A DNA stretch of 64,000 nucleotides, from the NCBI GenBank assembly GCA_021781655.1, contig JAJXWJ010000001.1, positions 1 to 64,000 on the forward strand. Direction: 5' to 3'. The position numbers and the translations under genes are program-made. This stretch comes from Bacillota bacterium. GTDB taxonomy: Bacteria; Bacillota; Clostridia; Clostridiales; Clostridiaceae. This document shows, one piece after another, positions 5,082 to 18,240 of the stretch. A model generated the notes under the pieces. That model saw nothing but the letters and a program-made list of their open reading frames with translations, was not told the origin of the DNA and ran no database searches. Position 1 is the first letter of the stretch; every line of letters begins with the position of its first letter.

Positions 5082-5116
5082 GGACTGTCGCAATAGAAAT
5101 AATGTGCGACAGCCTC
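5082..5116. terminator. Terminator between convergent genes
   Basis: CTGTCGCA (5085-5092) pairs perfectly with TGCGACAG (5105-5112), extended by GG/CC outside a mismatch. A T-containing tail follows on the plus strand. It separates the radical SAM gene from the convergent oxidoreductase gene. Confidence 0.6.
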
Positions 5117-5129
5117 TATATTTTATGCA

Positions 5130-6407
5130 TTAGGCCAATTTCTTATTTAAAATATCACTAAGCTTAAGCTTATTAATTTTATTTTTAATAGCATCAACAT
5201 CTGTAGTATAAAGCCCCTCTTTTTTCATTCTCTCAAAATATATAGCCCCAGCAAAGGTGTATCGTTTTTTTCTACCTTCATTTGAAAGCATCATATAATT
5301 TGCATAGGTAATAATATCTCCAATTGCTATTTCTCTAGGTAAAATAAGCATTGGCATACAATGAGAATATCTTACTGCATTGTGACCAGCTAAAGAGCCA
5401 GTGCAAATAGCTTCAGTGTGACCTACGAAAAGTCCGCCTTTTTCACCAGCACAAAATAGATTATCGATTCCTTTAACCTTCATGTCGTCGGTTCTTGGAG
5501 CTACAGAAAGGTATCTTATAGAATTACCTTTACCACCAGCATATGGATCTATAAATTTAGCATTTTCGAGACCTTTGATTTTTCTCAATTTTTCTAAAGG
5601 ATAGAAGGTGGTCATAAGTTTTGCATGGCCAGTATCTAAAAGCACCACATTTTCTGCAAATTCTTTTAAGGCATACTGCTGACAAACCTTTAATTTAAGT
5701 TTATCTAAATTTATGTCTTCTGTAGGGATTTTTAAAACTACAACGCCTTTACAATTTAATTCGTTTACAATTTCTTCGCTTAAAGAATCTTTAGCCAATT
5801 TGCAGGAGCCGCTGAAGGCACCAAGGCTACCATCCTCTCTTTCACCTTGAAGGTCGTCAACACCAGCACGACTTGAAATACTTACTCTTGGTCCAAAAGA
5901 AGGACATCGCAAAATACACATAGAACAGCCATTTCCATATCTTAAACAGTTTCCCATTGGTCCAGTAGAACCAGTAGTCTCAACAAAAACGTCACCACCT
6001 ACAAAAGTTCCATCAGAAAGGTATATGCCTTCAATTTTATTTTTTGTTTTACGAACATCGATTACTCTTTTTATTAAATTAACTTTAATATTGAGGCTTT
6101 CCAAATAGCTTTTTACCTTTGGTTCAATTTTGTTAACGTCATAAAGCCATGCATGTTCATGACCAGGAAAATTAATATTTTTATGTCTAGAATTATTATC
6201 TGTAATATTAAAAAGGTCTCCACCGCCTAAAGCTATAAGTTCTTCAGTAGCAGTAAAACGCCCATTATTTCTCATTATTCCGCCAACGTTTCCTAGTCCT
6301 AAAACCATATCGGTTTTTTCAAAAATTTCAACTTCTGCACCAGCTTTTTTAGCTGAAATTCCAGCGGCACAGCCAGCCCAGCCAGCCCCGATTACTATAA
6401 CTTTCAT
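5130..6407 (-). CDS. FAD-dependent oxidoreductase E, GidA/TrmFO-like fold
   Basis: The N-terminus has a classic FAD-binding Rossmann motif (VIVIGAGWAGCAAG) and an acidic strand end (VEIFEK). A middle Cys cluster reads CSMCILRC. The C-terminal flavin motif NLFCAGEKGGLFVGH resembles GidA/TrmFO proteins. The protein has 425 residues. It is probably a flavin enzyme fed with electrons by the upstream gene F, from which it is 34 bases away, with TCGGAGG as ribosome site. The substrate is unknown. A broken second copy of this gene lies at 13.4 and 17.0-17.3 kb, and the codons around 6145-6162 (for HEHAW) match the integration site used there. Confidence 0.75.
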   Translation of the reverse strand: MKVIVIGAGWAGCAAGISAKKAGAEVEIFEKTDMVLGLGNVGGIMRNNGRFTATEELIALGGGDLFNITDNNSRHKNINFPGHEHAWLYDVNKIEPKVKSYLESLNIKVNLIKRVIDVRKTKNKIEGIYLSDGTFVGGDVFVETTGSTGPMGNCLRYGNGCSMCILRCPSFGPRVSISSRAGVDDLQGEREDGSLGAFSGSCKLAKDSLSEEIVNELNCKGVVVLKIPTEDINLDKLKLKVCQQYALKEFAENVVLLDTGHAKLMTTFYPLEKLRKIKGLENAKFIDPYAGGKGNSIRYLSVAPRTDDMKVKGIDNLFCAGEKGGLFVGHTEAICTGSLAGHNAVRYSHCMPMLILPREIAIGDIITYANYMMLSNEGRKKRYTFAGAIYFERMKKEGLYTTDVDAIKNKINKLKLSDILNKKLA

Positions 6408-6441: not shown

Positions 6442-7419
6442 TTAAATTAGTCGTCTTCCATCAAAAATATATTTTGGATCTATTTGAACCTTGCATAATT
6501 TTTTTACAACATGACCTTTGTACCTAACGCTACAGGTTCCACATATTCCTTCTCCACAGCACATTTTAGCATTATTGCAGCATGCTGTTTTTATGTCCTT
6601 TGGAATAAATTCTAAAATATTGCTAATCAAAATATCTGGTCCAGCACAGTAAACTAGATCAATTTCATTTTTATACTCATCAATTAAATTTTTTAACTCA
6701 GTACTTAATTTACCGTTATTTAAAAGTTTTGCTTTTATTATTTTTGCATTGCAAAGCTCAAAATAATTTTTAAAGTAATCAATAGAAAAATCCGTTTCGT
6801 CAATTATTGCTATTATTTTATTTCCCTTAGAATATAGCCTTTTCATTATTGGAATCATTGGTGCTATACCAATACCTCTTGCAATTAAAAGGCTAACTTT
6901 ATCAAAGCTAGAATAAATATTTTTTAATCCAAGAGCTCCGTTCCAAAAAGGACCACGAACAACAATATTGTCATTTTCATTAAGTTTATTTAGCATTTTA
7001 GTTTTTATTCCTTTAAGTTCTATAATAATTTTTAATCTGTTTTCTTCAGTGTCGGAATCCATTATTGAAATGGGGACATCGAAAAACTTGTTGGTTTCAG
7101 GATTTCTTAAAAAAATAAAACTTCCTGGATGTGATAATTCTTGTGCAAGCTTGTGCTTCACAAGTATAGTAAATGCGATTACATTTTCATTTATATAATG
7201 TTTTTTATAAATTTTACATAAAAAATCCTTTCTTTCTGCTTTTGGGAGGTCACCTTTCCAAACACTTTCTTGATAAATACATACCCCTTTCCAGTTTGTA
7301 CAATCACAAAAATCTTTACCCTGTAATTGGGAGCATAATATGCAGTCGCCTGTTTCGGATAGGTGGCAAGGACAAAATTCAGTTCCTGCATCGATACAAT
7401 CTATGATTTCATAATCCAT
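6442..7419 (-). CDS. Fe-S/flavin electron-transfer protein F (PyrK-like)
   Basis: First gene of the F-E operon. The N-terminal 47 residues hold eight cysteines (positions 8, 16, 18, 26, 29, 38, 40, 47), which suggests an extra metal cluster. The middle resembles a ferredoxin-reductase FAD/NAD module (VVRGPFWNGALGL, SLLIARGIGIAPM). The C-terminus has a [2Fe-2S] pattern (CCGEGICGTCS with a later Cys) like dihydroorotate dehydrogenase electron-transfer subunits. It probably passes electrons from NAD(P)H to E. The start has GGGGGA as ribosome site. Its first codons and promoter are duplicated at 10.6 and 18.1 kb. Confidence 0.8.
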   Translation of the reverse strand: MDYEIIDCIDAGTEFCPCHLSETGDCILCSQLQGKDFCDCTNWKGVCIYQESVWKGDLPKAERKDFLCKIYKKHYINENVIAFTILVKHKLAQELSHPGSFIFLRNPETNKFFDVPISIMDSDTEENRLKIIIELKGIKTKMLNKLNENDNIVVRGPFWNGALGLKNIYSSFDKVSLLIARGIGIAPMIPIMKRLYSKGNKIIAIIDETDFSIDYFKNYFELCNAKIIKAKLLNNGKLSTELKNLIDEYKNEIDLVYCAGPDILISNILEFIPKDIKTACCNNAKMCCGEGICGTCSVRYKGHVVKKLCKVQIDPKYIFDGRRLI

Positions 7420-10300: not shown

Positions 10301-10621
10301 CTCAATTTTCCCATCTACTTCATGTCTCTTTAGTAACGCCAAAAACCACAGCTGCTTTTTCTTCAGTGAGAGAGTTTTTAATTCGCCAGCATTTTAAAAT
10401 TTCACTAAAATTTTTATCCTGAAAATCAAAGTATTCATCATAAAAATATTTATTACCAGTTTGGAATAAATCAGCTAATTTTTGTTGAGTCCAGCCTCTA
10501 AGTAATCTTTCTTTTTTTATTAATTGGCCTATGGTTTCAGTATCATTTTTATCATAGAGCACCGAGCGTAAGTTCAAATTATAGCATTTGGTTATCCTTT
10601 CCATTATCGCAGTTTGGTGTG
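10301..10621 (-). pseudogene. Broken copy of the tandem helix-turn-helix gene
   Basis: Parallel to the intact gene at 17689-18135: shared blocks include GQLIKKERLLRGW, KYFYDEY and EILKCWR. About 30 residues of the first helix-turn-helix domain are missing, the N-terminus is out of frame with the original start, and a conserved Trp codon near the end has become TGA (VTKET then stop). The two copies have diverged noticeably at DNA level, yet both are fused at the same point to the start of gene F. Confidence 0.7.
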
Positions 10622-10622
10622 T

Positions 10623-10745
10623 CAAGGACAAAATTCAGTTCCTGCATCAATACAATATATGATTTCATAATCCATATAAATCTCCCATGGATAATAATTA
10701 AGTGCTACTTATATAATATTTTTAAATTATAAAAATGTGACTAAA
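10623..10745 (-). repeat. Second copy of the F promoter and first codons
   Basis: This stretch matches the start and upstream region of gene F (7370-7495) nearly base for base. It encodes MDYEIIYCIDAGTEFCP, then a TGA created where F has TGC. The rest of F is replaced by the broken helix-turn-helix gene. Confidence 0.75.
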
Positions 10746-12923: not shown

Positions 12924-13391
12924 ATGAAATTTTCTACAAGAACAGTTAAAGCTATAATTGCTAAAGAATTTAAGGATTATTATAGAAACCCCATTATATT
13001 AATAGCAGTATTTTTACCAACTTTTTTTACTATATTTTATTCAAATATGTTCAATAATTCATTTCTTAAAATTTTATGTATAAATTCTAACATTATTTTT
13101 TGTGGGCTATTTATACCACCATACCTCATTACTGAAGAAAAAGAAAATAATACTCTAGATGCACTTATATTATTTTCTGTAAATTCTTTCGAATTTTTAA
13201 TAGGCAAAATTTTACCGTATATTTTTTTATCGTTATTTGCTAATTTATTAGCTTTATTATTTATATTAAAATTAGATTTTGTGAATTTTTTGCAGATTTT
13301 GTTTTTGATTTTTATTTCTTTAATTGGATTGATTTTAGTCGGAACTTTAGTTGGTTTTATATTCATGTTTTCTAAGAGGCTTTTTACCTGA
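12924..13391 (+). pseudogene. ABC-2 type transporter permease 2, C-terminally truncated
   Basis: Paralogue of the preceding permease (KAIIAKEFKDYYRNP; EEKENNTLDALILFSVNSFEF). Homology ends near 13376, after about 150 of the expected 240 residues. The reading frame then runs a few codons into a fragment of oxidoreductase E. The last two membrane segments are missing, so a two-permease transporter would be damaged unless permease 1 works alone. Confidence 0.7.
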
Positions 13392-13427
13392 GGCTCTATT
13401 TTATTAACATCATATAGCCATGCATGT
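13378..13427 (-). pseudogene. Oxidoreductase E' fragment, left of the insertion
   Basis: About 50 bases match gene E (6107-6156, codons for the HAWLYDVNKIEPKVKS region) and end at the attL-like site. The left junction with the truncated permease is abrupt, so a deletion removed the rest of E'. The other side of the same gene resumes at 17005. Confidence 0.65.
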
Positions 13428-13453
13428 GCATGATTTATTATATTGCGATGTTC
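13416..13453. other. attL-like junction
   Basis: The left half (AGCCATGC) continues the E gene; ATGT (13424-13427) is common to both ends and to the intact E gene; the right half (from 13428) is element DNA. The right half is an imperfect mirror of the element DNA at the other end: read outward, about 16 of 26 positions agree without gaps, including CATG, ATAT and GCGA. This is the layout of a serine-integrase attachment site. Confidence 0.6.
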
Positions 13454-13456
13454 TTG

Positions 13457-13860
13457 TTAAATGAGTCCATATCTAATTGGTTTTTTATCAGAACCCCATA
13501 AATCGATAGTAACATCTCTTGTTTCACCATTCCAATATATAGTATCAACAATAGATTCAATTTGAAATCTCTTCTCTTCCATACTGGGCAGATTTTCAAA
13601 ATAACTATTAAATTTTCTTATTGCTTCAATTAAAAATTCTGAATTTATTTGATTCAATAAATTTTGATTATTTTCCGTTTCCACATTATTTAGTTTATAT
13701 TCTAATTTTTTGATTTCTTCTCCAACCTCATTAATTCTATTTAAATAAACTCTGAAGTAATTGCATTTTGTGCTTTAGATAGTTGATCTAATAGAACTGA
13801 CAATTGTTGTTTTTTAAAATCAATTTCTAATTTTATATTATTAAGTGGCGAATTATTAAA
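13457..13860 (-). pseudogene. Large serine recombinase, frameshifted C-terminal remnant
   Basis: Two overlapping frames together read like the end of a phage-type large serine recombinase: a coiled-coil region (LEIDFKKQQLSVLLDQLSK), then after a frameshift near 13740 a helix, EEKRFQIESIVDTIYWNG and a final VTIDLWGSDKK. The N-terminal resolvase domain with its catalytic Ser is gone. The stop lies about 30 bases from the attL core, the usual place for such a gene. Confidence 0.65.
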
Positions 13861-13984
13861 CTTGGAGTTTATAGAAAATCCATAGGTGTAAATGGGACAT
13901 AAATAGTAAATCATTGAAAAATATATATCATAGGACAATCAATGTTTAACATAAATTTTATTATTAATCTAGGAGGTGTGAAAT

Positions 13985-14167
13985 ATGAAAAGAATGAAGA
14001 AATCAATTACTGTTACAGTAAATGAAACAATACCTGAACTTAAAGAACAATATGATGAAAGAGCTGCAGATGCATATGTAAGATGCATAGTTAACCATAC
14101 GATATTGGAAGAAATTAACAAATTGTTAATCGCTCTTAAGAAAAGAAATGGAATACCTTATGAATAA
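13985..14167 (+). CDS. Small hypothetical protein, 60 residues
   Basis: A basic, mostly helical protein (MKRMKKSITVTVNETIPELK at the start) with a strong AGGAGGTG site eight bases before the ATG. It lies inside the degenerate element, 39 bases before the tail-spike gene, and may be a phage accessory protein. No family is recognised. Confidence 0.6.
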   Translation: MKRMKKSITVTVNETIPELKEQYDERAADAYVRCIVNHTILEEINKLLIALKKRNGIPYE

Positions 14168-14206
14168 AATATGATTTAGTAATTAAAAGACAGGGAGGCT
14201 ATAAAA

Positions 14207-16960
14207 TTGACTTCTGCTGATGTTATAAATATAAAAAATTTTGGGGCAAAAGGTGATGGGCAAATAGATGATACTATTGCAATTCAAAATGCTATTAATG
14301 AACTAGCTTCAAAAAATATTAATCGACTTTATTTCCCATCAGGAACTTATAAAATTACCTCTGCCATAACAATACCAGAGATGGAAATGAAAATAATTGA
14401 TGGCGACGATGCAATGATTGTACAATATACTGATAATGTTCCTATACTTAGACCAATGCATTTTTCTACAGAGGTTGATACTTGGGGCATTTATATAGAA
14501 GGACTATTGTTTAAATATAATAATCCTCAAACACAGAGTGGTGCAATAGGATTAATGTTTGACAGCGATGCTTCTAACGGAAGTGGATTTTATCAATGGA
14601 CATTACATCATTGTTGGTTTTATAACTGTTATGTAGGTATATCACCAAACCCAGTTAATATTGCTAAGGGTTGGCAACTGGCAATTTGGGATTTAACCTT
14701 GGACGATGTTACTTTTCAAGAGACAAAACATAGAGTATTGAACTTAGAATGTGGAATTGGCATTCCCAATATAATTTTGAGGGATTTTAGAGTATTTAAT
14801 CAAAATGTTGTATCTGATGATATATGTTTGAATTTTACAGCTGCAGGAGTAGTAATTGAAAATGCTGATATGGAAGGCTGGCATAATTATTTATTAGCAT
14901 CAAGTGGAGGTAGTTTCATTACAATGCAAGATTTTCACATTGAACATCATAGTATAGATGGTGATTGTGACCAAGTATTTGTGCTCTCAAATGTAGGAAA
15001 TTTTATATTTAAAAATGCTGGAGTTAATTTTGTAATTAACACTACACCAGGATGGACTGGTAAAATTTTTAATGCTCATGGGGATGGTACAAATTTAATT
15101 TTAGAAAATATGATATATTCTGAAAGTAATAGTTCAAATAATCCTCGACCTGTATGGTTTGGTGCAGCAAATCTTAGTACGGTAAAAATAAGCAATCTGG
15201 ATACTTCGATTATAAGTGCTTATTTAGATTCAGATGATACACGAGATAAAATCATAAATATAGATAATAATTTTGTAAATGGTATTAAAATTAAAAATCA
15301 AAATATAGTTTATGGTACTTCTGCTCCAACATCTGGAACATGGAATAAGGGTGACAAAGTATTTAATTCTTCACCTCTTGAGAGTAGTCCATTTGGTTGG
15401 GTTTGTATAACCTCAGGAACACCTGGCGTATGGATAGAAGAAAATAGTTCGAAAAGTAAAGAAAATAATTATTATTTTAATTTAAATAATTCATGTTTAG
15501 AACATTATAGAAATTGCATTAATCCGAAAATAGTTGGATTTGGAGATTCAATATTAGCTGGTGCAGGTACAACCAATATATGGTCTTGCTTCATTAAAAA
15601 ATTTTCTGATATATTGCAAATATTCAAGGATAGCTACTATGGTACGGGGTACTCTTCTTTTAGCAATACTAGTGGTCTTACAAACTGGACTGTTGAAAGC
15701 CATGGAACTAATCAATTCAGAATAATATCTGGGGCTAATGCAAGTGATTGTGATTTAACTTTGGCTGTTACCAATCCTAAAACCCAATTAACAATTGATA
15801 TAATTTATTCTATGGAAACTGATGGTGGAAGTTTTGACATATTGGTAAATGGAAATACAGTTCAAACAGTTTCGTGCAATGGGAAACATAGTTATCATAA
15901 TAGTATTTCAATTATAGTTCCTGCAAATCAGAGTTTAAAAATACATCCTCATATAAATGAAAAAGTATATTTGGAAGGTTATGTGCATCGTGGTGCAAAT
16001 GGGTTGTCAGATGGGGTATTAGTGCATCAGCTTGGTCATCCTGGAGACTACCTTGAAGCATATTCAGATGATGAAATAGTGGCAAGTATATCTGCTTTGA
16101 AGCCTGATTTAACAATAATTGAACACATTATAAATTCGTCCGAAAAAGGAACTCCCGTATTATTTAAGCAAAAAATAACTACTGCAATTAAGGAAGCTAA
16201 AAAGACAGGAGATGTACTTCTATTAATACCATGTAGAGGAAAAACTTCGTATAATTACGATAGTTATGTTACTATTCTTAAAAATTTGGCAGAACAATAT
16301 TATTGTGGTTTTTTAAACATCGATGCTTTTATAGGTGGATATACTAATGGGCAAAGCTTAAGGTTAATGTCAGATGATACACACCCTAATCAATATGGAC
16401 ATGATATAATTACTAGATTATTAATTAACTTCTTAATATCCCCATTAAGTGACATTAATTATTTAATAGGTCATTTTGCCGATGAAGGAAATTATTATTC
16501 AACAGAATTTAATATATCAAAGCTTTTAGGCAATTTAAGATTTTCAAATTCTCCTATTGAATTTAAAAAATTACAAGGATATAGAGGAGCAAACCTTCAA
16601 ATTGGGAATGCAAATATAGTTGATTCTAATGGAAATATTATAATTTGTTTAGCTAATTATGGGGATAATACAGGTGCAATGATGCAACTAAATGATTTTA
16701 CCTCAAATAAATTTTTTCAAATGTATACAGCATATGGACACTCTTATATTTATCCTTCTAAAGATTTGATTTTTGATACTCAAGCTACCGATAAGATAAA
16801 TTATTATGTTACATTTAATCAAAGAATCCTTTGTAATAACGGATGTACAATTGCACCAATTTCATCACAAAATGCTTCTCCAAGAACTATATTTGTAGAT
16901 AGTGTCGATGATATATTAAAATACAAAGATATTAGTGGGGTTATTCATAATTTATATTAA
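14207..16960 (+). CDS. Tail-spike-like protein: pectate-lyase fold plus SGNH hydrolase
   Basis: A 917-residue protein with no signal peptide or membrane segment. Residues about 5-60 (IKNFGAKGDGQIDDTIAIQ) match the pectate-lyase-3 beta-helix start used by phage tail spikes. A linker near 375-420 (GTSAPTSGTWNKGDKVFN) is typical of such fibres. An SGNH/GDSL esterase follows: GDS with the nucleophile Ser near 450 and DDTHPNQYGH near 725 with the catalytic Asp/His. The C-terminal 170 residues look like a receptor-binding or trimerisation part. It probably bound and deacylated or cut surface polysaccharide. TTG start with GGGAGG seven to eight bases upstream. It appears intact inside a dead element. 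Confidence 0.75.
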   Translation: MTSADVINIKNFGAKGDGQIDDTIAIQNAINELASKNINRLYFPSGTYKITSAITIPEMEMKIIDGDDAMIVQYTDNVPILRPMHFSTEVDTWGIYIEGLLFKYNNPQTQSGAIGLMFDSDASNGSGFYQWTLHHCWFYNCYVGISPNPVNIAKGWQLAIWDLTLDDVTFQETKHRVLNLECGIGIPNIILRDFRVFNQNVVSDDICLNFTAAGVVIENADMEGWHNYLLASSGGSFITMQDFHIEHHSIDGDCDQVFVLSNVGNFIFKNAGVNFVINTTPGWTGKIFNAHGDGTNLILENMIYSESNSSNNPRPVWFGAANLSTVKISNLDTSIISAYLDSDDTRDKIINIDNNFVNGIKIKNQNIVYGTSAPTSGTWNKGDKVFNSSPLESSPFGWVCITSGTPGVWIEENSSKSKENNYYFNLNNSCLEHYRNCINPKIVGFGDSILAGAGTTNIWSCFIKKFSDILQIFKDSYYGTGYSSFSNTSGLTNWTVESHGTNQFRIISGANASDCDLTLAVTNPKTQLTIDIIYSMETDGGSFDILVNGNTVQTVSCNGKHSYHNSISIIVPANQSLKIHPHINEKVYLEGYVHRGANGLSDGVLVHQLGHPGDYLEAYSDDEIVASISALKPDLTIIEHIINSSEKGTPVLFKQKITTAIKEAKKTGDVLLLIPCRGKTSYNYDSYVTILKNLAEQYYCGFLNIDAFIGGYTNGQSLRLMSDDTHPNQYGHDIITRLLINFLISPLSDINYLIGHFADEGNYYSTEFNISKLLGNLRFSNSPIEFKKLQGYRGANLQIGNANIVDSNGNIIICLANYGDNTGAMMQLNDFTSNKFFQMYTAYGHSYIYPSKDLIFDTQATDKINYYVTFNQRILCNNGCTIAPISSQNASPRTIFVDSVDDILKYKDISGVIHNLY

Positions 16961-16986
16961 GGAAGTATGTATTAAATAGTTTTATG

Positions 16987-17022
16987 TATGTTCGCGATAT
17001 GGTAAGCCATGGATGTTCATGA
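16987..17022. other. attR-like junction
   Basis: The left arm (to 17012) is element DNA, ATGT (17013-17016) is the shared core, and the right half (TCATGACCAGG) returns to gene E. Against the intact E sequence the only mismatch in an 18-base stretch is on the element side, and the same holds in mirror image at attL. That places the crossover within ATGT. Confidence 0.6.
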
Positions 17023-17266
17023 CCAGGGAAATTAACATTTTTATGTCTTGCGTTTTTGTCAGTTATATTTATAAGTTCGCCACAACCAAGGGTGATAAGT
17101 TCTTCTGCAGCAGTAAACCTACCTTTGTTTCTCATTATGACTCCAACATTTCCAAGTCCCAGCACCATATCTGTTTTCTCGAAAAGCTCAACGTCAGCAC
17201 CAGCTTTTTTGCGGCAATTGAAGCTGCACAGCCGGCCCAACCTGAACCGATTACGATTAATTTCAT
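17005..17266 (-). pseudogene. Oxidoreductase E' fragment, N-terminal part
   Basis: Encodes the first 87 or so codons of a second E copy, starting MKLIVIGSGWAGCAA. One base is missing from an A run after about 20 codons, which breaks the frame. It ends at the attR-like site; 13378-13427 is its continuation on the far side of the element. The ribosome site AGGAGG and spacing to F' are retained. Confidence 0.75.
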
Positions 17267-17304: not shown

Positions 17305-17478
17305 CTAAATAAGTTTTCTTCCATCCAATATATACTTAGGGGCTATTTGAACCTTGCATAATTTTTTTACGATACGACTCTTATAGCGTACGCTGCAAGT
17401 ACCACAAATACCTTCTCCGCAACACATTTTTGCATTGTTACAGCAAGCGGTTTTTATATCATCGGGAAAATAGTATCA
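17305..17478 (-). pseudogene. F' fragment, C-terminal [2Fe-2S] part
   Basis: Encodes the last 58 or so residues of a second F copy, including NNAKMCCGEGICGTCSV and the end DGRKLI. Homology stops near 17478. The start of the same gene lies at 18111-18163, so the middle of F' was replaced by the DNA between. Confidence 0.75.
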
Positions 17479-17688: not shown

Positions 17689-18135
17689 TTATTTCAATAC
17701 CAATTTAAATTTCTCATAGTTTTTTCTATCCATTTTTCCTCCATTTTCCCATCTGTTCCAAGTTTCCTTAGTGACACTAAAAGTCTCAGCTGCTTTTTCC
17801 ACTGAAATAGATTTTTTATTTCTCCAACATTTTAAAATTTCATCAGTGTTTTTATCGAGAAAATTATAGTATTCATCATAAAAATATTTAAGTCTTGTTT
17901 TGAATAAGTTTGCTAGGTTCATAGATAATTCTGGGGGAGGATACAAAGCTCTTGTTTCATAATCCTTTATTATATATCTGCCTTGTTTTTCACTCAATTC
18001 TAATTTTGCAGCTAATTCTTTTTGACTCCAACCTCTTAGTAGTCTTTCTTTTTTTATAAGGTCACCTATAGAATTTAAATTGTTTTTTCCATTATCGCAG
18101 TTTGGTGTGTCAAGGACAAAATTCAGTTCCTGCAT
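17689..18135 (-). CDS. Tandem helix-turn-helix regulator fused into F'
   Basis: A 148-residue DNA-binding protein. An XRE-like domain (LIKKERLLRGWSQKELAAKL) is followed by KDYETRALYPPPE and then a second helix-turn-helix (SVEKAAETFSVTKETWNRWE). The ATG lies inside the leftover start of gene F, in another frame, so the first ten residues (MQELNFVLDT) come from F DNA. A 17-codon F leader peptide overlaps it. The F promoter probably drives it, which would place the regulator under the same signal as the redox operon. A broken relative lies at 10.3 kb. Confidence 0.65.
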   Translation of the reverse strand: MQELNFVLDTPNCDNGKNNLNSIGDLIKKERLLRGWSQKELAAKLELSEKQGRYIIKDYETRALYPPPELSMNLANLFKTRLKYFYDEYYNFLDKNTDEILKCWRNKKSISVEKAAETFSVTKETWNRWENGGKMDRKNYEKFKLVLK

Positions 18136-18240
18136 CGATACAATCTATGATTTCATAATCCATATAAATCCCCCATAGATAATAATTAAGTGCTACTTAT
18201 TTTATATTTTTAAATTTTAAAAATGTGACTAAAATAGGAA
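18110..18240 (-). repeat. Third copy of the F promoter and first codons
   Basis: Nearly identical to 7370-7495. A leader frame (18110-18163) encodes MDYEIIDCIDAGTEFCP and stops at TGA, where F has TGC. The copies at 10.6 and 18.1 kb share the same junction to helix-turn-helix DNA, so the fusion happened before they separated. Confidence 0.75.

Follow-up and report, generated by a model that had tools for sequence, protein, structure and literature searches.

A gene for a FAD-dependent oxidoreductase of the Clostridiaceae, here termed gene E, was found to be interrupted at three fixed sites by elements of the large serine recombinase (LSR) type, and a relic of one such element was identified in a 64,000-nucleotide stretch of a Bacillota bacterium genome (contig JAJXWJ010000001.1, positions 1 to 64,000; hereafter the window). 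The initial annotation had treated this element as degenerate and isolated; degenerate it is, but as a relic it represents a large family that occupies three sites in the same gene. We consider it probable that E belongs to the mother-cell genes and is split by LSR elements resembling skin. The window carries what is left of one of the LSR elements. The insertion sites, the att structure, the recombinases, the order of pieces that keeps the reading frame, the inherited splits with purifying selection and the SpoIIID-like box ahead of the F-E gene pair can all be read from the DNA itself, and we infer that excision of the elements is specific to the mother cell.

The relic element and its host gene

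The features of the window that bear on the element are as follows.

5130–6407, minus strand: intact gene E, for a GIDA-like FAD-dependent oxidoreductase of 425 aa; 189 of the 207 Clostridiaceae genomes have an orthologue
6145–6162, minus strand: unoccupied attB in gene E, at the HEHAW codons; core at 6154–6155, the same as the element core
6442–7419, minus strand: gene F, operon partner of E; sulfide/dihydroorotate dehydrogenase-like FAD/NAD-binding protein, NF004470
13355–13433, minus strand: downstream half of the paralogue E', about residues 83–108 of E; 80% identity to E
13425–13448, minus strand: att junction beside the recombinase tail; core at 13425–13426, arm TCGCAATA, given in E sense, at 13441–13448, 14 nt apart
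13460–13872, minus strand: frameshifted C-terminal remnant of an LSR, in E' orientation and ending beside the downstream half of E'; at most 43% identity to intact LSR tails
13985–14167, plus strand: intact 60-aa ORF, candidate directionality factor (RDF), divergent from the recombinase; HMM match E 2.7e-9
14207–16960, plus strand: intact 917-aa tail-spike-like ORF with a pectate-lyase-like N terminus and a GDSL/SGNH-hydrolase-like part
16992–17015, minus strand: att junction on the side of the N-terminal E' half; core at 17014–17015, arm TATCGCGA, given in E sense, at 16992–16999, 14 nt apart
17004–17266, minus strand: upstream half of E', residues 1–88; 81% amino acid identity to E
17308–17472, minus strand: 3' end of F', residues 271–325; 84% amino acid identity

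An 18-base site, AGCCATGCATGTTCATGA, had been reported to occur three times in the window, and this was borne out: the copy within E at 6145–6162 had no mismatch, those at 13416–13433 and 17005–17022 had one each, shuffles of the window gave a mean of 0.04 matches and in no shuffle were three copies found. The single mismatches, at 13428 and 17012, fell, as claimed, on that side of the crossover which belongs to the element. A search of the 3.7-Mb genome gave no other copy at two mismatches or fewer, and the 18-base match is not the dispersed repeat that the initial annotation had itself named as the counter-case. Positions 13355–13433 were 80% identical to gene E, and positions 17004–17210 were 79% identical, with the likeness running on through the end of gene F to 17468. 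The flanks bordering the element are the two halves of one paralogue, E', and the insertion into the HEHAW codons of a flavin oxidoreductase gene, as had been proposed, is real.

The recombined dinucleotide was TG, read as CA along E, and lay at 13425–13426 and 17014–17015, and the element spans 13426–17014, or 3,589 bases core to core. Read along E, intact elements in other genomes had the structure TCGCAATA-14 nt-CA-14 nt-TATTGCGA, and the second His codon contains the CA. The arms in the window, TCGCAATA-TAATAAATCATGCA-CA-TCCATGGCTTACCA-TATCGCGA, kept the spacing of the intact elements and differed at one base. The attP rebuilt previously was slightly off in its gapless ATGT centre, about which 16 of 26 positions are mirrored as against 17 of 26 about TG/CA, and the chance of the latter score at a single position in the window was 2e-4. 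The window element has what is expected of an LSR element at its ends, namely a core repeated on both sides with attB-derived flanks and arms that are symmetrical about the dinucleotide. An exact match to TCGCAATA-N14-CA was also seen at 5088–5111, just beyond the stop codon of E, which is probably due to chance.

The recombinase tail noted beside one att end proved to be genuine, as it matched the C termini of 526–577-aa recombinases from many Clostridiaceae (best E 1.7e-22). Scans of the tail against Pfam and PHROGs yielded nothing useful, and the matches came from whole-genome comparison. The tail is frameshifted near 13747–13756 and is all that remains in the window of an LSR with resolvase, recombinase and zinc-ribbon domains, which is intact in relatives (PF00239, PF07508 and PF13408 in locus L080, for example). 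No second similar tail was found in the genome, despite six matches to PF07508. The nearest relatives of the tail were all LSRs of site A (see below); it is too short for a tree, and no supported set placed it inside the site A group.

The 60-aa ORF, preceded by a good ribosome-binding site, belongs to a set of 17 homologous ORFs of 48–60 aa that diverge from LSRs in elements at sites A, B and C. When a profile was built from the 16 others, with the window's own left out, the window ORF was recovered at the E value listed above among 531 small ORFs. The family had no match in Pfam or PHROGs, and from its position and size the 60-aa protein is likely to be a directionality factor. The 917-aa ORF may be cargo or a prophage remnant. 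Comparison with the 207 family genomes gave weak partial relatives in five, and by BLAST the element DNA shared only short tail-fibre matches with phage genomes. The element as a whole looks like a prophage remnant that has lost most of its recombinase, and it is immobile by itself.

The host copy is also degraded. Homology to E stops after about residue 108, where an ABC-permease ORF abuts and the remainder of E' is missing, while F' has been cut down to its first 19 codons, containing a stop, and its last 55. With F' curtailed, the recombinase disrupted and its own distal part lost, E' is dead; because of that loss, excision could not restore a reading frame here. Intact copies of E and F lie 7 kb away, and dN between E' and E was 0.112, compared with 0.187 between E' and the E of another genome, which makes E' a probable lineage-specific duplicate. 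The events are most simply ordered as duplication, insertion into one of the copies, recombinase loss and decay. By attP x attB recombination, an LSR element would have entered E' at the CA in the codon for the second His of HEHAW, a deletion would then have taken most of the recombinase, and E' may have decayed as a copy made dispensable by the intact E. Separately, the promoter and 19 first codons of F, followed by a stop, were seen joined to an XRE-type helix-turn-helix ORF in two copies, at 10301–10745 and 17739–18233. The body of F' appears to have been replaced by an XRE-type regulator ORF (17689–18135); decay has gone further in the other copy.

Interruption of gene E across the Clostridiaceae

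The distribution of E was studied in 207 Clostridiaceae genomes, of which 189 encode it. A search with E of the loci carrying relatives of the recombinase found an E orthologue cut beside many of these recombinases, and a second search, restricted to genomes lacking a whole high-scoring copy of E, located the pieces in E coordinates. The comparison of clostridial genomes proposed in the initial annotation thus returned full elements with intact LSRs at the same HEHAW codons, with attL and attR of like form and spacing, and the empty sites are provided by unsplit E in at least about 140 genomes. The cuts fell at site A (about residue 86, 14 genomes), site B (about residue 262, 17 genomes) and site C (about residue 331, 15 genomes). 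Leaving the window's genome apart, this amounts to 46 insertions in 37 of 188 genomes, or about 20% of species. The smallest element measured 3.0 kb and the largest about 70 kb, and many were remnants of 3–4 kb. All three sites were filled in genome G025 (3.4, 53 and 4 kb), sites A and B were filled by small elements in G200, and, independently, IMG/VR proviruses with related recombinases had pieces of E at their ends for all three sites.

The three sites are served by recombinases that are related to one another. The 13 recombinases from site A formed one group (support 72/78), with one long-branched site C member nearby, and the 10 from site B formed another (100/100), while those from site C fell into two or more groups. 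Site labels were clustered on the recombinase tree relative to shuffles, the site following the LSR lineage, and the pattern reads as one integrase family having radiated over a single gene. Inverted arms were seen at the B and C junctions too, and in site A elements the recombinase could lie on either side of attP with the core unchanged. Note, however, that no free attP was found when viral contigs were scanned with a strict attP pattern, which speaks against the favoured reading. The association of these recombinases with E extends beyond close relatives, since provirus L238 (IMG/VR 2630968963_000002) carries a related recombinase by a piece of a distant E (56% identity, residues 257–336).

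Some individual elements deserve mention. At both junctions of the site A element of G124 (locus L086) the core was AA rather than CA and the host codon AAT rather than CAT, and core and codon seem to have changed together. The 6.8-kb site A element of G204 carries as cargo a gene of the choloylglycine-hydrolase family (L085:2644-3633; PF02275, E 3e-121) and a LysR-type regulator. Small site A elements of two species (L080:758-1774 and L083:7328-8386) have in common two cargo genes whose products look secreted or lipoprotein-like, of about 102–106 and 222–241 aa, the larger of which had no PHROGs match.

The split genes were rejoined in silico. In relatives, joining the pieces restored the gene in frame: 423–424 codons without a stop were obtained in 11 fully covered split genomes, and in two further split genomes the covered parts had no stop. 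Splits at both A and B are common to genomes G169 and G177; dS was 0.373 for the site A recombinase and 0.389 for E, and dN/dS for E was 0.016/0.389, or about 0.04. In the pair G171 and G172, dS was 0.197 for the recombinase and 0.184 for E, with dN/dS of 0.012/0.184, or about 0.065. Because the dS of the LSR matches that of E, element and gene diverged together, and the split was inherited in both pairs. In both, E is under purifying selection. As the split is older than the divergence of the species and selection was nevertheless kept, E must be rejoined in some cells.

Conserved protein codons suit attB, several of the elements are large and some are prophage-like, and phages with related integrases (46% identity) exist. 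It could be that E is an ordinary hotspot for temperate phages and their remnants by virtue of its conserved codons, with excision that is not tied to sporulation, and that split genes survive either through the recency of the insertions or through active lysogeny, in which elements leave often enough in growing cells for the population to maintain E. We regard this as unlikely, given that the insertions are not recent in the two host pairs, where the split was inherited under strong purifying selection, and that the many 3–4-kb remnants are hardly infectious. Moreover, the occupancy of a single gene at three sites, with 37 of 188 genomes affected, is high, whereas spoIVA, taken as a yardstick, is hardly ever fragmented in those 207 genomes. 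A second alternative, namely that the elements are neutral relics and that E is a dispensable gene disabled for good everywhere, holds for E' in the window, where the distal part is lost and the element lacks a working recombinase, and a few split copies elsewhere do carry stops or reach contig ends. For the family it is very improbable and largely refuted by the reassembled split genes without stops, by their low dN/dS and by the presence of E in nearly all of the genomes. That the 18-base repeats are coincidental, or come from a dispersed repeat with no recombinase connection, has next to no probability left in view of their uniqueness in the genome, the halves of one gene on both flanks and arms matching those of intact elements at fixed spacing.

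A probable link to sporulation

The reading of E as a mother-cell gene draws on its distribution and on the promoter of the F-E pair. Among the 207 genomes, 187 had both E and spoIVA, 10 had neither, eight had spoIVA alone and two, both incomplete, had E alone. Fisher's test gave p = 8e-11, a value uncorrected for kinship and confounded by phylogeny, as the asporogenic genomes belong to four genera. All nine genomes of at least 82% completeness that lacked spoIVA also lacked E. On the other hand, three of the eight spoIVA-positive genomes without E are small but nearly complete, and several split genomes also have a whole E paralogue (55–61% identical); both observations count against the favoured reading.

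The hexamer GTAACA was present upstream of F in 40 of 54 loci, mostly 58–70 bases ahead, as compared with 1.9 in shuffles and 22 of 328 other ORFs in the same loci. When ATAnnnTA was sought 14–18 bases further on, 39 of the 54 regions retained the match (0.1 in shuffles; 15 of 328 other ORFs), and the -10-like part is one that we take to fit an element of the sigma-K/sigma-E type. The consensus for SpoIIID in C. difficile is KRTAACARK (PMC5025042). The fuller form KRTAACAR was found in only 13 of the 54 upstream regions, the promoter of F in the window itself reads GTCACA, and the promoters of the RDF candidates gave scattered matches with no uniform sigma-E/SpoIIID signature; these three results weigh against the favoured reading. 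In C. difficile the directionality factor of skin is driven by SpoIIID with sigma-E (PMC5025042). Elements of the same architecture in spore formers split the sporulation genes sigK, spsM, spoVFB, spoVR, gerE and yabG.

The mother cell is indicated because E follows spoIVA, a SpoIIID-type box precedes F-E and known elements of this kind sit in sporulation genes. Our favoured interpretation of these data is that E, whose orthologues in the Clostridiaceae host, at three fixed sites, a family of LSR elements ranging from 3-kb remnants to about 70 kb, is a mother-cell sporulation gene. The LSR and the 48–60-aa RDF would excise the element in the doomed mother cell and so rebuild E, and the spore would retain the split gene, as with skin and sigK. 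The data suggest that excision takes place when E is needed, which is probably in spore formation.

Known elements and significance

The closest parallel is skin in sigK of Clostridioides difficile (LSR CD1231, RDF CD1234), likewise an LSR element that splits a gene and gives the frame back on excision (PMC5025042, PMC10747680). Its RDF has 53 aa (PMC10747680), within the range of the E-element candidates, and the SpoIIID box lies upstream of the RDF gene in skin and upstream of F-E here (PMC5025042, PMC10747680). Unlike skin, the elements described here target E instead of sigK and use three sites with their own LSR groups, their excision is deduced, and the copy in the window is dead. Two other gene-intervening elements, gin in gerE of Bacillus cereus (GirC and the 42-aa GirX) and SPbeta in spsM (SprA/SprB), resemble the E elements in pairing an LSR with a very small RDF, a candidate one in the case of E (PMC5595907, PMC4191935); gin, however, is 28.6 kb long with three recombinases and another target, whereas E elements go down to 3 kb. 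The prophage-like element yin in yabG of Clostridium botulinum V73 is clostridial and carries a recombinase and a putative RDF, like the E elements (PMC10747680), but was reported to be unique to one strain, while E elements are spread over many genera. Among annotated phage LSRs, the nearest to the site A LSR of G025 was the integrase of Terrisporobacter phage TPELB_ph1 (46% identity over 99%), which was only 27% identical to the window tail.

An LSR element that splits a gene is of a known kind. Within the open-access literature, novelty appears to lie in the gene that is targeted, in its three sites and the integrase groups particular to them, in how often they are occupied and in the family of 48–60-aa proteins. 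No paper in that literature was found to name E or an E-like oxidoreductase as the target of an intervening element; an earlier account in subscription journals is possible.

With somewhat more reserve than for the reading as a whole, we favour the view that F-E is an uncharacterised mother-cell sporulation gene pair in which E has been colonised at three sites by related serine integrases. Some clostridia would then need two or three independent excisions within E before it could work in sporulation, E would be among the most interrupted spore genes of the Clostridiaceae, and the proteins of about 55 aa would make up a new family of directionality factors. The developmental excisions known so far turned up singly; E, by contrast, is conserved in nearly all sporulating Clostridiaceae and has elements at one or more of three sites in some 20% of species. 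The inherited split, together with selection on E, points to an unstudied spore function of the F-E redox pair. Matched LSR, RDF and att triples with a clear site code should be useful for tracing shifts in LSR specificity, and ordinary strains allow a direct test of what makes elements of this type settle in genes of the mother cell.
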